From assembly GCA_016789905.1 (NCBI GenBank), contig JAEUQC010000114.1, forward strand, positions 1 through 64,000: a DNA stretch of 64,000 bases. The letters run 5' to 3'. Origin of the DNA: Bryobacterales bacterium. Lineage in GTDB: Bacteria; Acidobacteriota; Terriglobia; Bryobacterales; Bryobacteraceae. Shown here one piece after another: positions 3,258 through 49,958 of this stretch. Below the pieces are notes generated by a model, which searched no databases, was not told where the DNA came from, and saw only the letters and a program-made list of their open reading frames with translations. A program made the position numbers and the translations under genes. Within the stretch, counting starts at the first letter, position 1, and the number at the start of each line of letters is the position of its first letter.

Positions 3258-3959
3258 CCCCGAATCCCGCACGCGCTGCTGCGCGCCGGCAATATCGTAG
3301 GGGATCCGCCGCAGCAATACGCGGTTTTCGGTGCTGTCATACAGGGCGCACGACGCGCGCCAGTCGCGATCCCGCGGCTGCCCCACGGAGCCCGGGTTGA
3401 TCAGATAATGGTCCCCCGCTTCCAACTGCACCAGCGCCGTTTCCTCATCCACGCCCACCGTCGGCAGCATCATTCCCTGGTCGCCATGGAAGCGGATGGC
3501 GCACTGCAGGTGCGTGTGCCCAAAAAAGACCAGCGGCGTTTGCATCACTTGGCGCGCCCGTATGATCTCCTGCGCGTCCAGTAAGTATTCGTCCTCGTGA
3601 AAGGGAGACCCATGCACCAGTTGGAACTTATCCTCAATCCAAACCGGCCCCTGCGGCAGCATCCGCAGCCATTCCAGGTTCTCCGGTGTGAGTTGCGTCA
3701 TCGTCCACTTCACCGCTGCCTGGGCCAGCGGATTGTAATCGTCCGTATCGTCCAGCCCGCAGCACGCCTTGTCGTGATTCCCGCGAATCACCACCGCGCA
3801 GTTGGCGCGGGCCCAATCGCAAATCTCATTCGGACTGGCACAGTAGTCGACAAAATCGCCGCAGCACAGTATCTGGTCGTACAGTCCTTCATTCGCCGCC
3901 AGCACGGCTTGCAGACCTTCAAAATTCGCATGGATATCGCTGACAATCAGGTAGCGCAC
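3216..3959 (-). CDS. Metallophosphoesterase (calcineurin-like)
   Basis: This cytoplasmic phosphoesterase has 247 residues. The dimetal-site motifs are present in order: DIHAN near the N-terminus (D-x-H), GDFVDYC (GD), RGNHDKA (GNHD), VHGSPF, and FGHTHLQ (GHTH). The fold and size fit the YfcE/DevT-like group that hydrolyses phosphodiesters or nucleotides; the substrate is unknown. The GTG at 3959 begins the beta-strand RYLIVSDIH that normally opens these proteins, so the longer upstream frame is rejected. It overlaps the 3' end of the upstream phosphoesterase gene by 13 bases, so the two are probably co-transcribed. Confidence 0.88.
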   Translation of the reverse strand: MRYLIVSDIHANFEGLQAVLAANEGLYDQILCCGDFVDYCASPNEICDWARANCAVVIRGNHDKACCGLDDTDDYNPLAQAAVKWTMTQLTPENLEWLRMLPQGPVWIEDKFQLVHGSPFHEDEYLLDAQEIIRARQVMQTPLVFFGHTHLQCAIRFHGDQGMMLPTVGVDEETALVQLEAGDHYLINPGSVGQPRDRDWRASCALYDSTENRVLLRRIPYDIAGAQQRVRDSGLPPMLAERLARGQ

Positions 3960-5077
3960 AGGCGGACCAGCGCAACCTCGGGCTCGGCGCCAATTCGCAA
4001 CGGCACACCCACTGTGCCAATGCCGCGCGTCACGTAGAGGTGCGACTTCTCTTTCTCGTAATGTCCGTACACGTACGGGGTAAAAAATCGGGCTAAATTC
4101 AAGTGCTGATTCAGATACTCTACCGTGACTTGGCCGCCGTGTGTGTGTCCGGCCAACGTAAGGTCCCACCCCTGGGCCGCCGCCGTTTCAAAAACATCCG
4201 GGTTATGCGACAACAATACCTGGAAACTCCCCGGCTCCCGCAGCGCCGCGGCGCCCGTCAAATAGTTCGTGTGCATTTTCTGGTAATCGACGCCGGCCAG
4301 CCGTAGCCGTGCGTCGCCAAACCGCAACGTCCGCGCCTCCCCGCGCAGAAACCGCACGCCGCGCTTGGCGCATTCCTCGGCCGCGTAGTCTTCGCACTTG
4401 GCGTAGATCTCATGGTTCCCCATGCAACCGAACACGCCCGCCTCCGCCCGCAGCCGGCCCAGTTCGCGGATACACGCATCCAGCGGGTCGCCGTCTCTGG
4501 TAATCAGGTCTCCTGTCACCACACTTAGGTGCGGGCGAAACGCATTGGCCATGTCCACCGCGTCCCCCAGTTCCCTTGGCGACAGAAAACTGCTCATGTG
4601 TATGTCACTGACTTGCGCAATCCGCAATCCCGCCAGGTCCTTCGGCAGCCCCGGCACCACCAGGTTCACTTCCAACGGTTTCAGCCGCCGACGTTCAATG
4701 AACGTTCCGTAGCCAAGCGCCGCCGCCGGCGCGGCCACAACGGCATTTCTCGCCGCCTGCAACACGCCCCGCCGCACCGGGTCCACAGGTGCCGCCGTCC
4801 GCCCCATCCACCGCGAAATCGCCAGTGCCACCGTCGTCCCGCATAGCGCGATCGCCCACAGCATCGGCATCGCCCGTAGCCAGTTGAACACCTCGCCCGG
4901 CGGCAGCAACTGCCATACGTACGGCATGTTCATCACCAGCCCAGCCACGCAAAACAACAGGCTGATAAGCAGCCATCGCCGCGCCGCCGGGAACCAGCCG
5001 CTCAGCATCCGGTGGCACAGCAACGTTAAACAGATTCCGAATAGTTCCGGCAATACCCGGGATAGGAGTGGCGACAT
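3947..5077 (-). CDS. Membrane-anchored metallophosphoesterase (YkuE/YaeI-like)
   Basis: The protein has 376 residues. The N-terminal ~110 residues carry about three hydrophobic segments (LFGICLTLLCH, LLISLLFCVAGLVM, LWAIALCGTTVALAI). A calcineurin-like phosphatase domain follows, with VSDIHMS, TGDLITRDGD, GCMGNHEIY, LLSHNPD and LAGHTHGGQ, the full dimetal set. This layout is typical of YkuE/YaeI proteins, some of which hydrolyse lipid-linked phosphates such as UDP-diacylglucosamine; the substrate here is not determined. Basic and Pro/Ala-rich sequence links the membrane part and the enzyme. It lies upstream of and overlaps a second phosphoesterase gene, and is divergent from the amidohydrolase gene. 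Confidence 0.88.
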   Translation of the reverse strand: MSPLLSRVLPELFGICLTLLCHRMLSGWFPAARRWLLISLLFCVAGLVMNMPYVWQLLPPGEVFNWLRAMPMLWAIALCGTTVALAISRWMGRTAAPVDPVRRGVLQAARNAVVAAPAAALGYGTFIERRRLKPLEVNLVVPGLPKDLAGLRIAQVSDIHMSSFLSPRELGDAVDMANAFRPHLSVVTGDLITRDGDPLDACIRELGRLRAEAGVFGCMGNHEIYAKCEDYAAEECAKRGVRFLRGEARTLRFGDARLRLAGVDYQKMHTNYLTGAAALREPGSFQVLLSHNPDVFETAAAQGWDLTLAGHTHGGQVTVEYLNQHLNLARFFTPYVYGHYEKEKSHLYVTRGIGTVGVPLRIGAEPEVALVRLCAT

Positions 5078-5160
5078 CGTCTATCACCAGTGTATCGGCA
5101 ATACTGGCCGTTTCCTTCTATCCATCCCCCTTCGCTTGCTTTTGCGCCATCCTGTATGCA

Positions 5161-7911
5161 GTGAAACCCGCGCTCCTGCTTCTCTTCTCTCTCGCCGCGT
5201 TCGCGCAGCCGCTCCTCATCCGCGGCGGCACCCTCATCGACGGCCAGGCCCGCCAAGCCGACCTTCTCATAGACAACGGCCGCATCAAGGCCATCGGCCC
5301 CAACCTGCCCTCGCCCCCCGGCGCCGACATCATCGACGCCCGCGGCAAGTCCGTCCTCCCCGGCCTCTTCGATCTCCACACCCACGTCAACTACCCCACG
5401 GTCGGCGGCTCTCGCCAGGATTGGGGCAAAAACCTCAAGGCTTATCTCCGTTCCGGCGTCACCTCGCTCGCCGATTTCGGAACCTACCCCGAAACCTACG
5501 AACCCGTCCGGCGCCTGCTCGCCGAAGGCAAATGGCAGGGGCCCCGCGTCCACTTCGCCGCCCGCTTCTCCACCCCGGGCGGCCACGGCGTGGAGGGCGG
5601 CCGCGGCGACTTTTTCACCAATGAAGTGCTCACCCCCCGCCAGGCCCACGCCGCCATGGCCCGCGTCCTGCCATACAAGCCGGACATCATCAAGGTATTC
5701 ACCGACGGTTGGCGCTACGCCCAGGCGCCCGACATGACCAGCATGGAGCTCGAAACCCTGCGGGCCATCGTCGAAGACGCGCACAAAGCCGGCATCCCCG
5801 TGCTCACCCATACCGTCACACTCGCTAAAGGCAAAATCGCCGCCAAAGCCGGTGTTGACGCCATCATGCACGGCATCCAGGATCAGCCCATCGACGACGA
5901 ACTTATCCAGTTGATGCGCGCGAACAACGTTGCCTACGGCCCCACCGCCGCCGTCTACGAACCCCGCGCGGGCTACATCAACGAACCGCTCCTCACCGAA
6001 CTCCTGGAGCCCGCCGCCATTGACTCTCTCAAGAATCGCCCAATGCTCGCCGCGCCTAGCGCCCAGCGCATCCGCAAGTACGAACTCCTGCGCCAGAACG
6101 TCGCCGCACTCCACAAAGCGGGCATCTCCATCGTCGCCGGAACGGACGCAGGCATCGTCGGCACCCACCACGGCTGGGCCTCCCTCCGCGAAATCAAACT
6201 GCTCGCCGGCGCCGGTCTCGGCCCCGCCGATGCGTTGAAAGCTGCCACAGCCAACGCCGCCCGCGTCCTTCGCGACAATGATCGCGGCTCTCTCGCCGAA
6301 GGCAAAATCGCCGACATCCTTATCGTCAACGGCCGGCCCGATCAGGACATCAACACCATCGACCGTATCGACACCGTTATCCACGCCGGCCGCATCGTTA
6401 ATCTCGCCGCGCTATCCAGCGCCATTCACGCCGATGGCCCTACGCCCACCCCCGCCATCCCCGCGCCCTCCCTCCTCGATGATTTCGAATCCCCCAATGG
6501 CCGCAGCCGTCTCGACACCCGTTGGGTCAATAGCACCGACACCGGGCACGACCGCACCACCATGCTCTACCAGCGCATCCAGCGGGCGCCCGGCAACCAC
6601 GCCCTCTCTGTCACCGCCAATTTCTCGGATTCCAACAGCCCCTACGCCCGCGTCAACCTTCCCCTCACAAAGGGCGCCGTAGAACCGATGGATGCCGGCG
6701 CCTTCGCCGGCATCGAGTTCGATGTCCGCGGCGAGGGTGCTTACAACTTCCGCATCTTCACCACAAAGTCCCCCTTTGAAGCCGGCCCTCAATGGTCCAC
6801 CGTCCGCATCCCGTTCGACGCCAAACTCGACCTTCACCGTCTCTCCCTTCTAACCTTCGAAATCGCCCGCTCCGGCGGTACCCGCGCCTGGCTCGAACTC
6901 GACAACATTCGCTTCTACAAGGCTGAATCCGCCGCGCTCTTCGAAGAGGAGATTCCCGCCTCCCGCAAGTACCGCGAGGAGAGCTACGCCCAGTTCCAAC
7001 GCTTTGCCTCCCGCCTGGAAAAGGAACAAGATGCCGAAAAGCTCCGCCGGGAGTTCCTGGGTAAACTCGGCTACCCGCCGCCGGGCTTCACCGGCCCTTA
7101 CGCCGAGCGCATGGAGAAGTTCGGCGAAGACAGCGTCGCCACCTATTACCGCGCCTGGGTGCCAGTCGCGCCGGACATGGAGGTCTACGGGCTCTACCTC
7201 GTCCCGAAAAATACTAAGCTCCCCGCGCCCCTCGTCATAGCGAAGCACGGCGGCGGCGGGTACCCCGAACTGGCCATTTTCAAGGGCGGTGGCAACTACA
7301 AGGACATGATCCGCGGCGCCGCGCAGCAGGGCTACGTCGTCTGGGCGCCCATCACACTCATGCACCCGTTCCGCGATCGCGACTCCGGCACTCCCATTCC
7401 CGCCGAAGTCCGCCGCGATATGGACGCGCAGTTCCGCAAACTCGGCACCAGCCTGATGGCCGTTGAAACCATGCGCATCTCCCGCTCGCTCGACGTCATG
7501 ATCCGCCGGCCCGAAGTGGACCCCAAACGCGTCGGCATGGTCGGCCTCTCCTACGGCGGCTACTTCACGCTCTACACCATGGCGCTCGACCCGCGCATAA
7601 AGGTGGGCGTCGCCTCCTGTTCCATCCGCGATCGCGACGCGATGGCGCAGGAGATGCCGGCGGGCAAAGCGCCCGAGGGCCGTCCCATGGATATGCCCGG
7701 CGCTGATCTGGCCAAGCTCATCGCCCCCCGCGCCCTGCAACTGCAAAACGGCGTAAACGACAAAGGCCTGCCTATCGACATGGTGCGCCGCGCCGCGGCC
7801 GAAGCTAAATCCCACTACGCCCCCGGTGGCGCCTTCGAGTTCATGGAGTTCGACGGCGGCCACGAGTGGCGCGGAGACATCGCATGGGCCTTCCTGCGCA
7901 AGCATCTCTAA
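5161..7911 (+). CDS. Exported amidohydrolase / CIA30-like / alpha-beta hydrolase fusion
   Basis: This 916-residue protein combines three modules. After a signal peptide (KPALLLLFSLAAFAQ), residues ~18-410 are an imidazolonepropionase-type amidohydrolase: metal ligands HTHVN, lysine region IIKVFTDG, HTVTLAK, MHGIQD and AGTDAGIVGTHHG. Residues ~435-610 resemble a CIA30/galactose-binding beta domain (FDVRGEGAYNFRIFT, then WLELDNIRFY). Residues ~630-916 are an alpha/beta hydrolase of the dipeptidyl-peptidase/acetyl-esterase type, with nucleophile elbow GLSYGGYF, an Asp around NGVNDKG and a His in DGGHEW. The GTG at 5161 gives a clean signal peptide; the upstream ATG at 5068 overlaps the divergent gene. 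It is likely a periplasmic enzyme for cyclic amides, dipeptides or esters; the substrate is unknown. Confidence 0.85.
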   Translation: MKPALLLLFSLAAFAQPLLIRGGTLIDGQARQADLLIDNGRIKAIGPNLPSPPGADIIDARGKSVLPGLFDLHTHVNYPTVGGSRQDWGKNLKAYLRSGVTSLADFGTYPETYEPVRRLLAEGKWQGPRVHFAARFSTPGGHGVEGGRGDFFTNEVLTPRQAHAAMARVLPYKPDIIKVFTDGWRYAQAPDMTSMELETLRAIVEDAHKAGIPVLTHTVTLAKGKIAAKAGVDAIMHGIQDQPIDDELIQLMRANNVAYGPTAAVYEPRAGYINEPLLTELLEPAAIDSLKNRPMLAAPSAQRIRKYELLRQNVAALHKAGISIVAGTDAGIVGTHHGWASLREIKLLAGAGLGPADALKAATANAARVLRDNDRGSLAEGKIADILIVNGRPDQDINTIDRIDTVIHAGRIVNLAALSSAIHADGPTPTPAIPAPSLLDDFESPNGRSRLDTRWVNSTDTGHDRTTMLYQRIQRAPGNHALSVTANFSDSNSPYARVNLPLTKGAVEPMDAGAFAGIEFDVRGEGAYNFRIFTTKSPFEAGPQWSTVRIPFDAKLDLHRLSLLTFEIARSGGTRAWLELDNIRFYKAESAALFEEEIPASRKYREESYAQFQRFASRLEKEQDAEKLRREFLGKLGYPPPGFTGPYAERMEKFGEDSVATYYRAWVPVAPDMEVYGLYLVPKNTKLPAPLVIAKHGGGGYPELAIFKGGGNYKDMIRGAAQQGYVVWAPITLMHPFRDRDSGTPIPAEVRRDMDAQFRKLGTSLMAVETMRISRSLDVMIRRPEVDPKRVGMVGLSYGGYFTLYTMALDPRIKVGVASCSIRDRDAMAQEMPAGKAPEGRPMDMPGADLAKLIAPRALQLQNGVNDKGLPIDMVRRAAAEAKSHYAPGGAFEFMEFDGGHEWRGDIAWAFLRKHL

Positions 7912-9209
7912 AGCGCGAGCAGCGCGCTTGGTTCGTCTATGACTGGGCTAACTCCGCCTATTTTTCCACTGTCGTTACGCTCTTCCTCGGTCCATACCTG
8001 ACGGCCATCGCCAAAGCTGCCGCCGGTCCCGATGGCTACATTCATCCCTTCGGCCTGCACATCGATCCCCGTTCGCTCTGGGGCTACCTCGTCTCTCTAT
8101 CGGTCCTGACGCAGGTTCTCGTGCTCCCGCTGGTCGGCGCCATTGCTGACTACGGCCACCGCAAGCGCGAAATGCTCGGCGCGCTCGCCTATACGGGCGC
8201 CATCGCCACCATGTGTCTCTTCTTCGTCGAAGGGACCAACTATCTGCTCGGCGCCGCGCTATTCCTGGTTGCCAACCTCGCCTTCGGCGCCTCCATGGTT
8301 GTCTACAACGCCTTCCTGCCGGAAATCTCAACGCCCGAGGAACGCGACAGCGTCTCGTCAAAAGGGTGGGGAATCGGCTATCTGGGCGGTGGATTGCTGC
8401 TCGCTCTGAACCTCGCGTTTCTCTCCAACGCCACCGCGCTTGGCATCACCAAGGGCATGGCCGTACGCATCAGCATGGGCAGCGCCGGCCTTTGGTGCGC
8501 CCTGTTCACGCTGGTTCCCATGGCCGGGTTGCGCAATCGCGGCGCGCAGCACGCACTGCCCCACGGCTCGTCCATTTTCAAGGTCGGCTTCCAGCAGTTC
8601 TCGCACACCGTCCGGAACCTCCGCCGCTATCCCAAGACGCTGCTCTTCCTGCTTGCCTATCTCACCTACAACGACGCCATTCAAACCGTCATCGCCATGG
8701 CCGGCCAGTTCGGCAGCGACGATCTGAAGATGCCAATGGAACAGCTAACGCTCGCCATTCTTATGGTCCAGTTCGTGGCCTTTGCCGGCGCCATGCTCTT
8801 CAACTGGCTCAGTATCAAGATCTCAGCTAAACGCGCCGTCCTGGTGGCGCTTGTCATTTGGACCGGCGTGCTGTTCTATATCTATCTCGCCGTCTCCACC
8901 CCGGCCGAGTTCTTCATCATGGCCGCGCTCGTCGGCATTGTTATGGGCGGTAGCCAGGCGCTCAGCCGTTCGCTATTCTCGCTCATGATCCCGGAAGGCA
9001 AGGAAGCCGAGTACTTCAGCCTCTACGAGATCAGCGACAAAGGCACCAGTTGGCTTGGGCCGCTGGTGTTCGGATTGGCCTTGCAAATGACCGGCAGCTA
9101 TCGCCTCGCCGCGCTCTCGCTCGCTGTCTTCTTCGTCATCGGCTTCGTGCTTCTGAGCCGCGTGAACATTGAGGAAGCCGCCGCTGAAGCCCATAGCAAT
9201 GTGGGATAA
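7884..9209 (+). CDS. MFS transporter, UMF1/Atg22-like family
   Basis: This is a 441-residue integral membrane protein with about twelve hydrophobic segments. The N-terminal signature WFVYDWANSAYFSTVV is characteristic of the UMF1 family related to fungal vacuolar Atg22. A conserved MFS-type loop follows TM2 (ADYGHRKREMLG). Members are predicted effluxers or transporters with unknown substrates. The ATG at 7884 is preferred; it overlaps the 3' end of the upstream hydrolase gene by 28 bases and suggests co-expression. The upstream in-frame ATG at 7866 is less likely. Confidence 0.88.
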   Translation: MGLPAQASLKREQRAWFVYDWANSAYFSTVVTLFLGPYLTAIAKAAAGPDGYIHPFGLHIDPRSLWGYLVSLSVLTQVLVLPLVGAIADYGHRKREMLGALAYTGAIATMCLFFVEGTNYLLGAALFLVANLAFGASMVVYNAFLPEISTPEERDSVSSKGWGIGYLGGGLLLALNLAFLSNATALGITKGMAVRISMGSAGLWCALFTLVPMAGLRNRGAQHALPHGSSIFKVGFQQFSHTVRNLRRYPKTLLFLLAYLTYNDAIQTVIAMAGQFGSDDLKMPMEQLTLAILMVQFVAFAGAMLFNWLSIKISAKRAVLVALVIWTGVLFYIYLAVSTPAEFFIMAALVGIVMGGSQALSRSLFSLMIPEGKEAEYFSLYEISDKGTSWLGPLVFGLALQMTGSYRLAALSLAVFFVIGFVLLSRVNIEEAAAEAHSNVG

Positions 9210-46032: not shown

Positions 46033-47142
46033 ATGTTGAACCGGCGAAATTGGATGGTGGGTGCCGTGGCGTTGCCAGCGGCGGCACAGGCGCAAACGGC
46101 GGGAAAGCCGAAGAACATCGTGATTTCCAGCGCCAATGGATTGACGTGTTGCGACATTGCGATGAGTTGGATCCGATCCGGCAAAGACACGCTGGACGCA
46201 GTGGTGGCAGGTGTCAACGTGAATGAACTGGACCCGAACGACAATTCGGTGGGCTACGGCGGATTGCCGAATGAAGAGGGCGTGGTGGAACTGGACGCGT
46301 GCGTAATGCACGGGCCGACGCGGCGCGCCGGGAGCGTGGCGTCGATACGGGGGATTAAGACGCCGTCGAAAATCGCCAAGCTGGTAATGGAAGAAACCGA
46401 CCATGTGATGCTGGCGGGCGAGGGCGCGCTGCGGTTCGCGAAGGCGATGGGATTCACGGAAGAGAATTTGTTGACGGAGAAATCGCGCCTCGCGTTTCTG
46501 GTGTGGAAGCGGACGTTGAAGGATCAGAACGGGCATTCCAACTGGTCCGACGGCGTGGATGCGCCGCCGGGAAAATCGCCAAAGGCGCTGTTGCGGCTGT
46601 TTCCAAACGTCGATGAGGAGACGCTGGCATGGGCGCATGAAATGGCGGTGCGGCCGCCGACGGGCACTATTAATTGCCTGGCGTTGAATGAAAAGGGCGA
46701 GATGAGCGGATGCACGACGACAAGCGGGCTGGCATGGAAACTGCCCGGGCGCGTTGGCGATTCGCCGATTATTGGCGCGGGTTTGTATGTGGACCAGGAG
46801 GTGGGCGCGGCCGGGTCGACCGGGCGCGGGGAGGAGAATATCCGCACCGCCGGGGCGCACACGATTGTGGAGAATATGCGGCACGGGATGAGCCCGGCAG
46901 AAGCGGTGATGGATGCGTTGAAACGGGTGTCTCGCAACTATGACCATGACCTGAAGCGGCTGGACAAGTTCGACATCAATTTCTACGCGCTGCGGAAGGA
47001 TGGAGCGTTCGCGGGCGGATCGTTGTGGAGCGGGCAGATGCGGGGCACGGGTTTCGTGTCGCGGCAGTTCGCAGTGAACGATGGGACGGGCAACAGCCGC
47101 CTGATGGATTGCGCGTACCTGCACGAGAGGCGCCGTCCGTAA
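46033..47142 (+). CDS. Exported glycosylasparaginase (N-terminal nucleophile hydrolase)
   Basis: This 369-residue enzyme cleaves GlcNAc-Asn or Asp-X bonds. It begins LNRRNWMVGAVALPAAAQAQ, a Tat-like signal. It shows the family's N-terminal GGLPNEEGVVELDACVMHGP, the autocleavage site PPTGTINCLALN (nucleophile Thr after Gly) and GDSPIIGAGLYVDQEVGAAG in the beta subunit. It is active after self-cleavage. It heads a + strand run with an MFS transporter and two putative iron-sulfur or Cys-rich genes; this might import a peptide or amino sugar released by the enzyme. Confidence 0.9.
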   Translation: MLNRRNWMVGAVALPAAAQAQTAGKPKNIVISSANGLTCCDIAMSWIRSGKDTLDAVVAGVNVNELDPNDNSVGYGGLPNEEGVVELDACVMHGPTRRAGSVASIRGIKTPSKIAKLVMEETDHVMLAGEGALRFAKAMGFTEENLLTEKSRLAFLVWKRTLKDQNGHSNWSDGVDAPPGKSPKALLRLFPNVDEETLAWAHEMAVRPPTGTINCLALNEKGEMSGCTTTSGLAWKLPGRVGDSPIIGAGLYVDQEVGAAGSTGRGEENIRTAGAHTIVENMRHGMSPAEAVMDALKRVSRNYDHDLKRLDKFDINFYALRKDGAFAGGSLWSGQMRGTGFVSRQFAVNDGTGNSRLMDCAYLHERRRP

Positions 47143-47155
47143 TAGACTCTGTGGG

Positions 47156-48439
47156 ATGCAGCAGCGTCCGACCCGAGTGCGCCACCTGGTGCTGTGGCTC
47201 ACGGTAGCCGCATACATGATCACGTACATGGACCGCGTGGTGATCTCGTCGGCGGCGCCGAAAATTCGCGAAGAGTTTGGCTTCAGCCTGGAGACGATGG
47301 GGCTGATACTCGGCGCGTTTCGGTGGGGCTATGCGTTCTTCCAAATTCCGGGCGGTTGGTTGGGCGACCGGTTCGGGCCGCGGCGGGCGTTGACGCTAAT
47401 TGTGATCTGGTGGAGTGCGTTTACATCGTTGACGGCCGTAATGACCGGATCGGTAACTATGGCCATGTGCCGGTTTCTGTTTGGTGTGGGGGAGGCGGGG
47501 GCCTTCCCGATCGCTACGCGAAGCCTGTCACGATGGATGCTGCCATCGGAGCGAGGGTGGGCGCAGGGCGTTACGCACGCGGGGTCGCGACTGGGCGCGG
47601 CGTTCACGCCACCGATCGTGGCTTGGATGATATTGGCTTACGGATGGCGGATGCCCTTCCTGGTGTTTGGCTGCATGGGGATTGGCTGGGCGCTGCTGTG
47701 GTTCTACTGGTACCGGGACACGCCGGAGGAGCACAGGCAAGTGAACGCGGCAGAGCGGGAGTTGATTCAAAGTTCGCTTGGGGGCCCACGGCCCGCGCGC
47801 GCCGGGAACGTACCGTGGAAGCTGATTCTAGGAAGCCGAATGACTTGGACGTTGGGACTGATGTATCTCTGCTATGGGTGGACGCTGGCGATCTATTTGG
47901 ACTGGCTGCCAACGTATTTGAAGGAATTCCGCGGGTACGATTTGAAGAAGATGGGGCTGTATGCGTCGCTGCCGCTTTTGGCGGGGGTGGTGGGTGACTT
48001 GCTGGGCGGATGGATTACAGATTGGTGGGCGGAGCGGAGCGGTAATCTGAAACTGGCGCGCCAGGGCGTGGGCGCGGCCGGGTTCGCGATCGCGGCGTTG
48101 GGGATTGTGCCGGCGACGATGACGGGGAACGCAGAGATGTGCGTCGTCTACACATGCCTGGCGGTGTTTGGGCTGGAACTGACGGTGGGCGTATCGTGGG
48201 CGATTCCGCTGGACATCGGCGGGGACTTCGCGGGGTCCGTGTCGGCGGTGATGAACACGTTTGGGAATATCGGCGGGGCCATCTCTACCGTGGCGCTGGG
48301 CTTTCTTGTGAAATCATTCGGCTGGAACGTGCCCTTCTACACAGCCGCGGTATTTTGTGTCGCGGGCGCAATTTTATATCTTGGTATCGACGCATCGCGT
48401 CATGTGATCAGGACCGAAGCAGGAGCAATATCGAAATGA
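47156..48439 (+). CDS. MFS transporter, anion:cation symporter (ACS) family
   Basis: This 427-residue protein has twelve membrane segments. ACS/hexuronate-transporter-like motifs include YMDRVVISSAAPKIREEFGF, GYAFFQIPGGWLGDRFGPRR and MCRFLFGVGEAGAFPIATRS. Substrates in the family are organic anions such as hexuronates, glucarate or tartrate. It begins 13 bases after the asparaginase gene and its stop overlaps the ferredoxin start (ATGA). Confidence 0.9.
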   Translation: MQQRPTRVRHLVLWLTVAAYMITYMDRVVISSAAPKIREEFGFSLETMGLILGAFRWGYAFFQIPGGWLGDRFGPRRALTLIVIWWSAFTSLTAVMTGSVTMAMCRFLFGVGEAGAFPIATRSLSRWMLPSERGWAQGVTHAGSRLGAAFTPPIVAWMILAYGWRMPFLVFGCMGIGWALLWFYWYRDTPEEHRQVNAAERELIQSSLGGPRPARAGNVPWKLILGSRMTWTLGLMYLCYGWTLAIYLDWLPTYLKEFRGYDLKKMGLYASLPLLAGVVGDLLGGWITDWWAERSGNLKLARQGVGAAGFAIAALGIVPATMTGNAEMCVVYTCLAVFGLELTVGVSWAIPLDIGGDFAGSVSAVMNTFGNIGGAISTVALGFLVKSFGWNVPFYTAAVFCVAGAILYLGIDASRHVIRTEAGAISK

Positions 48440-49284
48440 AGATCAATCCCGACAAATGCGTGGCCTGCGGCAACTGCACCTACGTGTGCCCGATGGGCGC
48501 CATCTTTGTGGACCCGGTGATCAAGCGCGCTACTATCGACCGCGAGGAATGCGTGGAATGCTACGCCTGCTACAACGGCCTGAGCAAAGAAAGCCTGAAC
48601 CCGACGATCGTGCGCACCATGCGGAAGGTGTTCCAGATGATGCGCCTGCGATTTGAGCCGGAGCCGGACGTTTGCCCAACGTCGGCGTTTGAACCGGACG
48701 AGTTGGTTTGGCCGCGGGTGGTGCGGCGGGCATTCAGCGATCCGCGCGTGCCGCATGAATCGACTGGAATTGAGGGGCGCGGCACCGAAGAGGTGAAGAC
48801 GAACGACATCAGCGGGCGTGTGAAAGAGGGCGAGGTTGGGTTCACAATTGAATTCGGCCGGCCGGGCGTTGGCGCGCGATTCCATGAGATTGAAAAGATG
48901 TCGATGAAGCTGGCCAAGGCTGGGGTGGACTTTGAAAAGAAAAACCCCGTGACGACTCTGATGAAGGATCAAAAGACGGGCGAGATTCGGGAAGACATAT
49001 TGAACGAAAAAGTGATGTCGGCGATTCTTGAGATCAAGACCACGGTGGACAAGACGGAAGAGATCATCCGGCTGGTGAAGGAAGTGGAAAAAGAGATTGA
49101 TACGGTGGTGGTGCTGGGCGTGGGCGTGCGGTGCGACGCCAAGGGAGACGAAACTGTGGTGGCGCCGATCCTGGAAAAACTTGGCTACGAACTGCACCGC
49201 GCGAAGACCAATGTGGGCCTGGGCCGTGTGACCAATCCCGAGGCGATTGCCGAACAAAATGTACCCGCTGGAGCCGCAAAATGA
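48436..49284 (+). CDS. Dicluster 4Fe-4S ferredoxin fused to a domain of unknown function
   Basis: This 282-residue protein starts with a bacterial ferredoxin motif, Cys8-x2-Cys11-x2-Cys14-x3-Cys18-Pro. A second cluster site Cys39, Cys42, Cys45 is split, its fourth ligand likely Cys80 in DVCPTSAFEP 35 residues on. Residues ~120-280 have no family I recognise: VGFTIEFGRPGVGARFHEIE, VTTLMKDQKTGEI, and DTVVVLGVGVRCDAKGD. The ATG overlaps the transporter stop, and its stop overlaps the next gene's ATG (ATGA). The layout suggests an electron-transfer subunit of an oxidoreductase with the next gene. Confidence 0.8.
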   Translation: MKINPDKCVACGNCTYVCPMGAIFVDPVIKRATIDREECVECYACYNGLSKESLNPTIVRTMRKVFQMMRLRFEPEPDVCPTSAFEPDELVWPRVVRRAFSDPRVPHESTGIEGRGTEEVKTNDISGRVKEGEVGFTIEFGRPGVGARFHEIEKMSMKLAKAGVDFEKKNPVTTLMKDQKTGEIREDILNEKVMSAILEIKTTVDKTEEIIRLVKEVEKEIDTVVVLGVGVRCDAKGDETVVAPILEKLGYELHRAKTNVGLGRVTNPEAIAEQNVPAGAAK

Positions 49285-49958
49285 CAAATACACTGCACCG
49301 GTTTGGACCTGCTTCTTCGTTCCGAGATGACTACGTTGTGTTCGCGATCTGTTCGCGCGGGAAGAACGATAAAGACGCGCTGCCGAAGCTGCGGCAGTTC
49401 CTGGCAATGGCGATTCCGTTTAAGCCGGTGAACCTGGGAGACGCGCGCCACGGCGGCTGCTTGCGGCCATCGAGCGAGATGAGCCCGTTGAACCATTGGA
49501 ACCGTGACATGACGCCGGACCTGGAAGAGGTGGTGCGCGGGCTGGATGCGCCGACGACCGTGGCGGCGGTGTTCGACAACCGCGCGGCGGCGGTGGACTT
49601 CCTGAAAAAAGTGAAAGAGGCCGACCTGGGGATGAGCATCAACATCTCCACATCGGTGGAGAACGCCGAGGCGTGTTGCCACGAGGTGGGCATTCCGAGG
49701 CATTCGGTGGGCTATTCACTGGGCTTTGAAGGCAAGACGGAAAAGTTGCCCAATACGCAGACGATGCTGCTGTCCACGATGTGCGGGCATGGAATGGTAA
49801 GCCATTCGCTGGCGAAGAAGATGATCGACTGGGTGAAAGAAGGACGGCGAACGCCGGAACAGGCAGTGACGTATATGGCGCGCTTCTGCTCTTGCGGGGT
49901 ATTCAACCCGAGCCGCGCGAAGCGGGTATTGGAGGACGCGCGGCACGCAATGAAATAG
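49281..49958 (+). CDS. Cys-rich protein of unknown function, coupled to ferredoxin
   Basis: This 225-residue soluble protein has no family I recognise. Conserved-looking Cys clusters are FAICSRGKND, DARHGGCLRPS, NAEACCHEVGIPRH, STMCGHGMVS and MARFCSCGVFNPSRA: eight Cys and adjacent His residues, suggesting a metal or Fe-S centre or redox-active thiols. It is translationally coupled to the dicluster ferredoxin and ends an operon with a terminator, so the two are very likely one enzyme. No function is assigned. Confidence 0.75.
   Translation: MTNTLHRFGPASSFRDDYVVFAICSRGKNDKDALPKLRQFLAMAIPFKPVNLGDARHGGCLRPSSEMSPLNHWNRDMTPDLEEVVRGLDAPTTVAAVFDNRAAAVDFLKKVKEADLGMSINISTSVENAEACCHEVGIPRHSVGYSLGFEGKTEKLPNTQTMLLSTMCGHGMVSHSLAKKMIDWVKEGRRTPEQAVTYMARFCSCGVFNPSRAKRVLEDARHAMK

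Follow-up and report, generated by a model that had tools for sequence, protein, structure and literature searches.

A ferredoxin-type protein and its orphan partner in Acidobacteriota: a putative two-subunit iron-sulfur oxidoreductase

What might two proteins do together when one is a ferredoxin with a long unassigned extension and the other belongs to no family that can be named? This question is raised by two overlapping genes, here called P1 and P2, of the Bryobacterales contig JAEUQC010000114.1 (assembly GCA_016789905.1, family Bryobacteraceae), whose first 64,000 nucleotides are referred to as the window. The reading preferred here, to which we give a probability of roughly one in three, is that both belong, as its two subunits, to a single cytosolic iron-sulfur (Fe-S) complex that works as an oxidoreductase of the ferredoxin type on an anionic metabolite. 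None of the titles listed in a literature search names such a pair, and its absence from print is claimed no further than those titles.

The ferredoxin-type protein P1 and the orphan protein P2

The N-terminus of P1 is a ferredoxin domain. Its match to Pfam Fer4 scores 40.9 bits against a cut-off of 21.1 (E 1.5e-10), and Fer4-type matches are restricted to about residues 1-47, where P1 shares the CxxCxxCxxxC and CxxCxxC motifs of dicluster ferredoxins (Fer4/Fer4_10). All 60 aligned rows keep the cluster cysteines C8, C11, C14, C18, C39, C42, C45 and C80, and also C233; the rows, 59 of them distinct, cover two classes and include two distant members with 54 and 61% identity to the window P1. 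Unlike dicluster ferredoxins, P1 has 34 residues between C45 and its last ligand, C80, and continues into a C-terminal extension of about 200 residues. The eight cysteines would fit two [4Fe-4S] clusters, the allotment of each ligand to one cluster or the other being presumed. The linker that follows is invariant at 25 of its 33 positions, and its GRGTEEVKTND motif is unchanged in every row.

No credible family was found for the extension in Pfam, NCBIfam or PDB sequences, and the description of this gene in a first-pass annotation, eight Fe-S cysteine ligands joined to an unassigned domain, is borne out. Among the candidates set aside for the extension were PDDEXK_3 in Pfam (E 0.16 only), lysA (E 0.0017, 17 bits) and malyl-CoA lyase (E 0.0043) in NCBIfam, both far below cut-off and returned by one of two queries, and glycerate kinase (E 0.016) and lumazine synthase (E 0.095) in the PDB sequence search. 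The best NCBIfam match of P1, the HgcB ferredoxin (NF040864), was also rejected: it reaches 32.1 bits over residues 2-48 against a cut-off of 99, and the likeness is confined to the ferredoxin region. The sole PADLOC match, BrxP (21.5 bits), covers the ferredoxin motif only.

The AlphaFold model of P1 is poor overall (predicted local distance difference test, pLDDT, 60.4). Its C-terminal domain is modelled better, with 10-residue means of 69-95, in the order beta-alpha-beta-beta-alpha-beta-alpha. Foldseek ranks MJ1052 and TM0486 first for this part (E 0.016-0.05), which we take to be proteins of the Thiamine_BP/MTH1187 type, and VIA-align returns ACT and other common ferredoxin-like folds with Z up to 8.1 (the ACT region of SerB2). 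The likeness to Thiamine_BP/MTH1187 and ACT-type domains is thus one of fold, and no sequence relation was found; Thiamine_BP (PF01910) gave no match with two P1 extensions, and 18 of 100 shuffles equalled its profile score. A duplication joining the P1 C-terminus to the P2 N-terminus was likewise discarded, the profile comparison not being significant.

P2 had been described as fitting no known family, and profile searches, the analysis by which this could be overturned, place it nowhere in Pfam, NCBIfam or PDB sequences. It has no Pfam or NCBIfam match at E<=1, a 77-row profile has no match among PDB sequences at E<=10, and nothing credible appears in PHROGs or PADLOC. Scanned singly against Pfam, the 77 aligned members give scattered weak matches, the commonest being DEP (17 of 77, best E 0.0075). 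Two LysR-type regulators from a single-sequence PDB search (E 1.3-1.4) were rejected, and PF01910 for the P2 N-terminus (P 0.005 over 39 columns, one unplanned comparison without shuffles) was not used.

The residues C168, H170, C203 and C205 of P2 are invariant in 93 of 93 rows, as are H6 and H141; further residues that do not vary across two classes are R7, R62, W73, R75, R140 and S142, and two distant rows are 52 and 52% identical to the window P2. The remaining cysteines vary: C132 is kept in 74, C133 in 79, C24 in 25 and C60 in 7 of the 93 rows. Of the CC, CGHG and CSCG clusters listed at first, the cysteines of the last two and H170 therefore stand, whereas the CC pair is not conserved. 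The conserved C-terminal site is, as judged from the alignment, Cys3His, smaller than that first set. In the AlphaFold model (pLDDT 76.4) the N-terminal part is ferredoxin-like, and C-terminal helices flank C168-G-H170-G and C203-S-C205-G. The catalytic chain of ferredoxin:thioredoxin reductase, which carries three C-x-C motifs including CHC, was considered for P2 and rejected, P2 having three invariant cysteines and one invariant C-x-C only.

Fold comparison of the P2 N-terminus gives Z values of 7.2 at most, all to common folds, among them SbtB/PII-like and designed ferredoxin folds. With SbtB/PII-like proteins P2 shares a ferredoxin-like core (84 residues, 5.5 A), but the score is tied with designed ferredoxin folds, there is no sequence match, and P2 has an additional C-terminal domain. 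By fold comparison only, the similarity of P1 and P2 to PII, PII-like or ACT proteins lies within the range common to unrelated proteins. The fold searches did not take the P2 C-terminal domain by itself, and absence from their match lists does not exclude a family.

In the genus g7, four genomes encode short separate proteins that look like the P2 C-terminal domain (MC-x-HG ... C-x-CG), at L043 7902-8192, L044 4089-4586, L045 8168-8524 and L046 8026-8493. Two of the four genes are divergent from a NuoA-like gene and two lie beside an mtnA-like gene. GatB_Yqey was rejected for these domains (best E 0.0024, below cut-off). At L020 3181-3459, near a complete P2 gene, residues 175-225 of the P2 C-terminus are encoded a second time as a partial copy.

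P1 and P2 are encoded side by side. After 10 duplicate loci had been dropped, 87 remained, and adjacency was scored at the 84 with at least 860 bp upstream; P1 adjoins P2 in 81 of these, with P1 in pieces in two of them (L118 and L127). L127 shows two overlapping P1 frames (a frameshift or sequencing error), and the N-terminal P1 part missing at L118 matches on another contig of the same genome. An exact ATGA overlap is estimated from lengths in 36 of 82 pairs. Two of the three exceptions, L125 and L126 (genomes G616 and G617), have P1 elsewhere, each time behind an MFS (major facilitator superfamily) gene named by eye: in G616 on the contig of P2, about 12 kb away, and in G617 on another contig. 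At the third, L039 (G029), P2 is without its first 20 residues and P1 is absent. P1 was also searched for and not found in two g7 genomes that have the small domain only, nor in the rest of the genome of L057 (G620), whose contig starts 48 bases before P2; an assembly gap would explain the missing P1 there. This pairing is good evidence for a joint function of P1 and full-length P2. The first-pass annotation had gone further and likened the pair to a two-subunit redox enzyme; that the two belong together is supported, the enzyme is putative in nature and identity, and only four of the Cys/His residues listed in P2 clusters are conserved.

Both genes are under purifying selection, since differences pile up at codon position 3: compared with L050, the differences at positions 1/2/3 number 18/5/100 in P2 and 13/13/122 in the first 240 codons of P1.

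The gene row and the neighbours of the pair

In the window the two genes close one tight row on the + strand, behind an asparaginase and an MFS transporter gene (Table 1). An ATGA overlap joins the MFS gene to P1 and again P1 to P2; both open reading frames had been located correctly, and the overlap agrees with the translational coupling proposed for them. The hairpin at the P2 stop codon precedes a convergent GAPDH-like gene. It is strong and lies at the end where a terminator was first noted; a terminator scan requiring a T-run called none there.

Table 1. Coordinates of the features of the P1-P2 gene row in the window
Feature	Positions	Strand	Remarks
Asparaginase_2-family gene	46033..47142	+	Pfam PF01112 E 1.4e-60; first of four-gene row
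MFS transporter	47156..48439	+	Pfam PF07690 (MFS_1) E 1.3e-63; TIGR00893 278.8 bits
P1, 282 aa	48436..49284	+	2[4Fe-4S] ferredoxin domain ~1-82, linker 92-124, C-terminal domain ~131-250
P2, 225 aa, orphan	49281..49958	+	predicted N-terminal ferredoxin-like ~15-136; predicted helical Cys3His ~159-222
P2 C168-G-H170, half of invariant site	49782..49790	+	
P2 C203-S-C205, other half of invariant site	49887..49895	+	
11-bp hairpin overlapping P2 stop codon	49955..49982	.	fold -21.9 kcal/mol, z -3.6

The glycosylasparaginase and transporter seen upstream at first are confirmed by Pfam as Asparaginase_2 and MFS_1. The asparaginase is kept in only 6 of 87 loci and is no conserved partner. The MFS gene is closest to organic-anion/galactonate transporters in NCBIfam (TIGR00893); the D-galactonate/organic-anion assignment itself was not adopted, the score lying below the curated cut-off of 395, whereas that for MFS_1 was passed. 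A gene of the same type lies upstream in 47 of the 69 loci with room for it, which makes it the commonest partner in the window's family, and an amidohydrolase lies downstream of the pair in 16 of 70. Around the separated P1 and P2 of G616 are found BKACE, an O-methyltransferase, an FCD/GntR-type regulator, an amidohydrolase and a lactonase, as well as pyrroloquinoline quinone (PQQ) and glucose/sorbosone dehydrogenases. Names given by eye, without a profile check, are those of the MFS genes beside P1 in L208/L209, the synthase in L165, LysW, GAPDH, NuoA and mtnA.

The neighbours are different in the families f88 and f89. In f88, P1 starts 3-11 bp past a myo-inositol-1-phosphate synthase (MIPS) gene in all 7 loci that show both patterns (9 scanned). 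At the f88 locus L169, P2 stands in front of an amino-group-carrier gene row of the LysW type (3279-8659), made up of LysW-X-Y, then a glutamine amidotransferase-like gene, then LysZ-J; LysX, LysY (as argC), LysZ and LysJ (as argD subfamily) score above NCBIfam cut-offs, and what is presumably LysW has no NCBIfam match and was identified by its EDWGE-type tail. The inserted amidotransferase gene is weakly EgtC-like, far below cut-off. The LysW pattern recurs downstream of P2 in 6 of 9 f88 loci. Of the f89 loci L165 and L164, the first encodes a MIPS-like protein divergently from P1 and the second showed none. MIPS was rejected as a co-inherited partner, because 140 of 150 genomes in the family of the window carry it and it cannot account for a patchy pair.

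Distribution of the pair

The whole-genome searches covered Acidobacteriota. Among 150 genomes sampled from the window's family, 52 have a P2 match, the window's own included: 47 full or nearly full length, one fragment at a contig edge, and four with the small C-terminal-like domain only. A draw across the phylum gave 4 of 396 genomes, again with the window's own, one match being a 62-residue piece; the same piece is the single match among 38 genomes of the class of G321. In the class of G553, 13 of 193 genomes match (nine f88, two f89, G409 of f76, and one 26-residue fragment in f95), and an earlier, fully listed draw of this class gave P2 matches in 9 of 10 f88 and 2 of 4 f89 genomes. Within Acidobacteriota the pair is thus patchy, present in about one-third of the sampled window family and in f88/f89 of another class. 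A scan of GTDB contigs returned 386 relatives; among the best 80 of these, 79 carry titles of Acidobacteriota taxa and one that of Acidimicrobiia. The contig with the latter title (L093) groups with Bryobacterales in the P2 tree and is probably a mislabelled metagenome-assembled genome.

In a quick, midpoint-rooted tree P2 falls into one clade of f88/f89 and another with all remaining members. G409, which belongs to the class of f88/f89, has a window-type MFS-P1-P2-amidohydrolase unit, which suggests transfer of the whole unit, although its branch is long. A search for distant relatives of P1 among 297 Acidobacteriota gave 29 genomes at E<=0.1, three of them true; of the other 26, all weak, the loci of 8 were inspected and judged chance. 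P1 and P2 were unmatched among plasmids at the first limits, and one plasmid match to the P1 extension (E 2) was also judged chance. The only viral candidate, a 32-residue stretch, has no support from the P2 profile, and two more viral scans found none.

Oxidoreductase, sensor or cofactor module

If P1 and P2 form an oxidoreductase, P1 would relay single electrons to or from P2, whose C-x-H...C-x-C site may bind a metal or a small Fe-S cluster. The many invariant Arg, His and Lys residues found in P2 and in the P1 linker could hold an anionic (carboxylate or phosphate) substrate, and P2 and the P1 linker would together form the site for this compound. The MFS transporter of organic-anion type encoded with the pair may often bring it in. 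The reaction would be a reduction or an oxidation with an external low-potential carrier, because neither P1 nor P2 shows a recognised flavin or NAD domain. The interaction of P1 with P2, the metal in P2, catalysis and the class of substrate are what we infer here. 6-Hydroxynicotinate reductase, considered as a lead, was dropped on the literature only, as no paper joining this enzyme with a ferredoxin was found. A more specific proposal, somewhat doubtful, is that of a putative new class of two-subunit Fe-S oxidoreductases of Acidobacteriota, in which a helical Cys3His metal or cluster site of P2, not described before and fed by the P1 ferredoxin, would act on an imported organic anion or, in the second clade, on an inositol- or sugar-phosphate-related compound.

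Several observations weigh against an oxidoreductase. The folds of the P1 C-terminus and the P2 N-terminus resemble generic ferredoxin-like, ACT and PII-like domains (Z 8.1 and 7.2), and ACT and PII-like domains are often regulatory; moreover, the P1 model is poor. At 22 of the 69 loci the 4.5 kb upstream gave no MFS call, although L122 among them has an MFS match in a long open reading frame starting just past that limit, and no MFS transporter was seen beside the pair in f88/f89. In the six f88 loci measured, P1 and P2 lie about 5-6 kb apart on opposite strands.

The same folds lead to an alternative that we consider unlikely, namely a redox-sensing regulatory pair, in which the P1 clusters and the P2 Cys3His site would act as sensors of redox state or of a ligand, with the ACT/PII-like domains controlling the transporter or nearby enzymes. 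It would fit the listing of PII-like SbtB for P2 and of ACT and GlnK domains for P1, a transporter as the commonest neighbour, and partners that differ between clades. However, the Z values are within the range that the fold tool calls a common arrangement, and the f88 neighbours are biosynthetic genes, with no transporter.

An equally improbable role is that of a metallocofactor or sulfur-transfer module, with P1 giving electrons while P1 C233 and the P2 C-x-C assemble or hand over a metal, an Fe-S cluster or sulfur to a client enzyme. Both proteins have invariant cysteines beyond the ferredoxin motifs, the P2 C-terminal domain exists as small separate copies in g7, and in f88 LysW-type genes come after P2 and MIPS comes before P1, so that the pair would not be bound to a single pathway. 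Yet no client gene common to both clades was found, and Fe-S assembly families are absent from the Pfam and NCBIfam matches of P1 and P2 (for P1 in NCBIfam, among the best 25 of 81).

Finally, the P2 C-terminus might be a divergent Bfd-type helical [2Fe-2S] domain (C-x-H-x32-C-x-C), which would make P2 an electron-transfer partner instead of a catalytic subunit. The BFD domain has a helical fold with C-x-C ... C-x2-C ligands, and P2, like Fer2_BFD (PF04324), has two short pairs of ligands, separated by about 32 residues, that lie between helices, in P2 predicted ones. Fetched members of Fer2_BFD mostly have C-x-C ... C-x2-C, and 2 of 16 have C-x-H. Open frames of about 1045-1087 aa at L195/L196 encode tandem Fer2_BFD domains, the second with C-x-H in place of C-x-C; a histidine variant may therefore exist. 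The four small stand-alone domains align with the family at hhalign P 0.015, without shuffles. Nevertheless this reading is quite improbable, since P2 itself reaches only P 0.043 (probability 1.2%) and is equalled by 5 of 100 column-shuffled profiles, no PF04324 match at E<=1 occurs among the 77 members, and all 93 rows have C-x-C where the second pair of BFD would be C-x2-C.

What the pair means for these bacteria differs with its role. As a regulator it would be a ferredoxin-coupled ACT-like sensor, a kind of which we know no example. As the oxidoreductase preferred here it would carry out an unassigned redox step in 9 of the 10 f88 genomes sampled and in about one-third of those sampled from the window's family, at a Cys/His site outside the profile libraries searched. 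The pair is a compact two-gene target, with the transporter as a clue to the substrate, and may lead toward a new reaction or cofactor.

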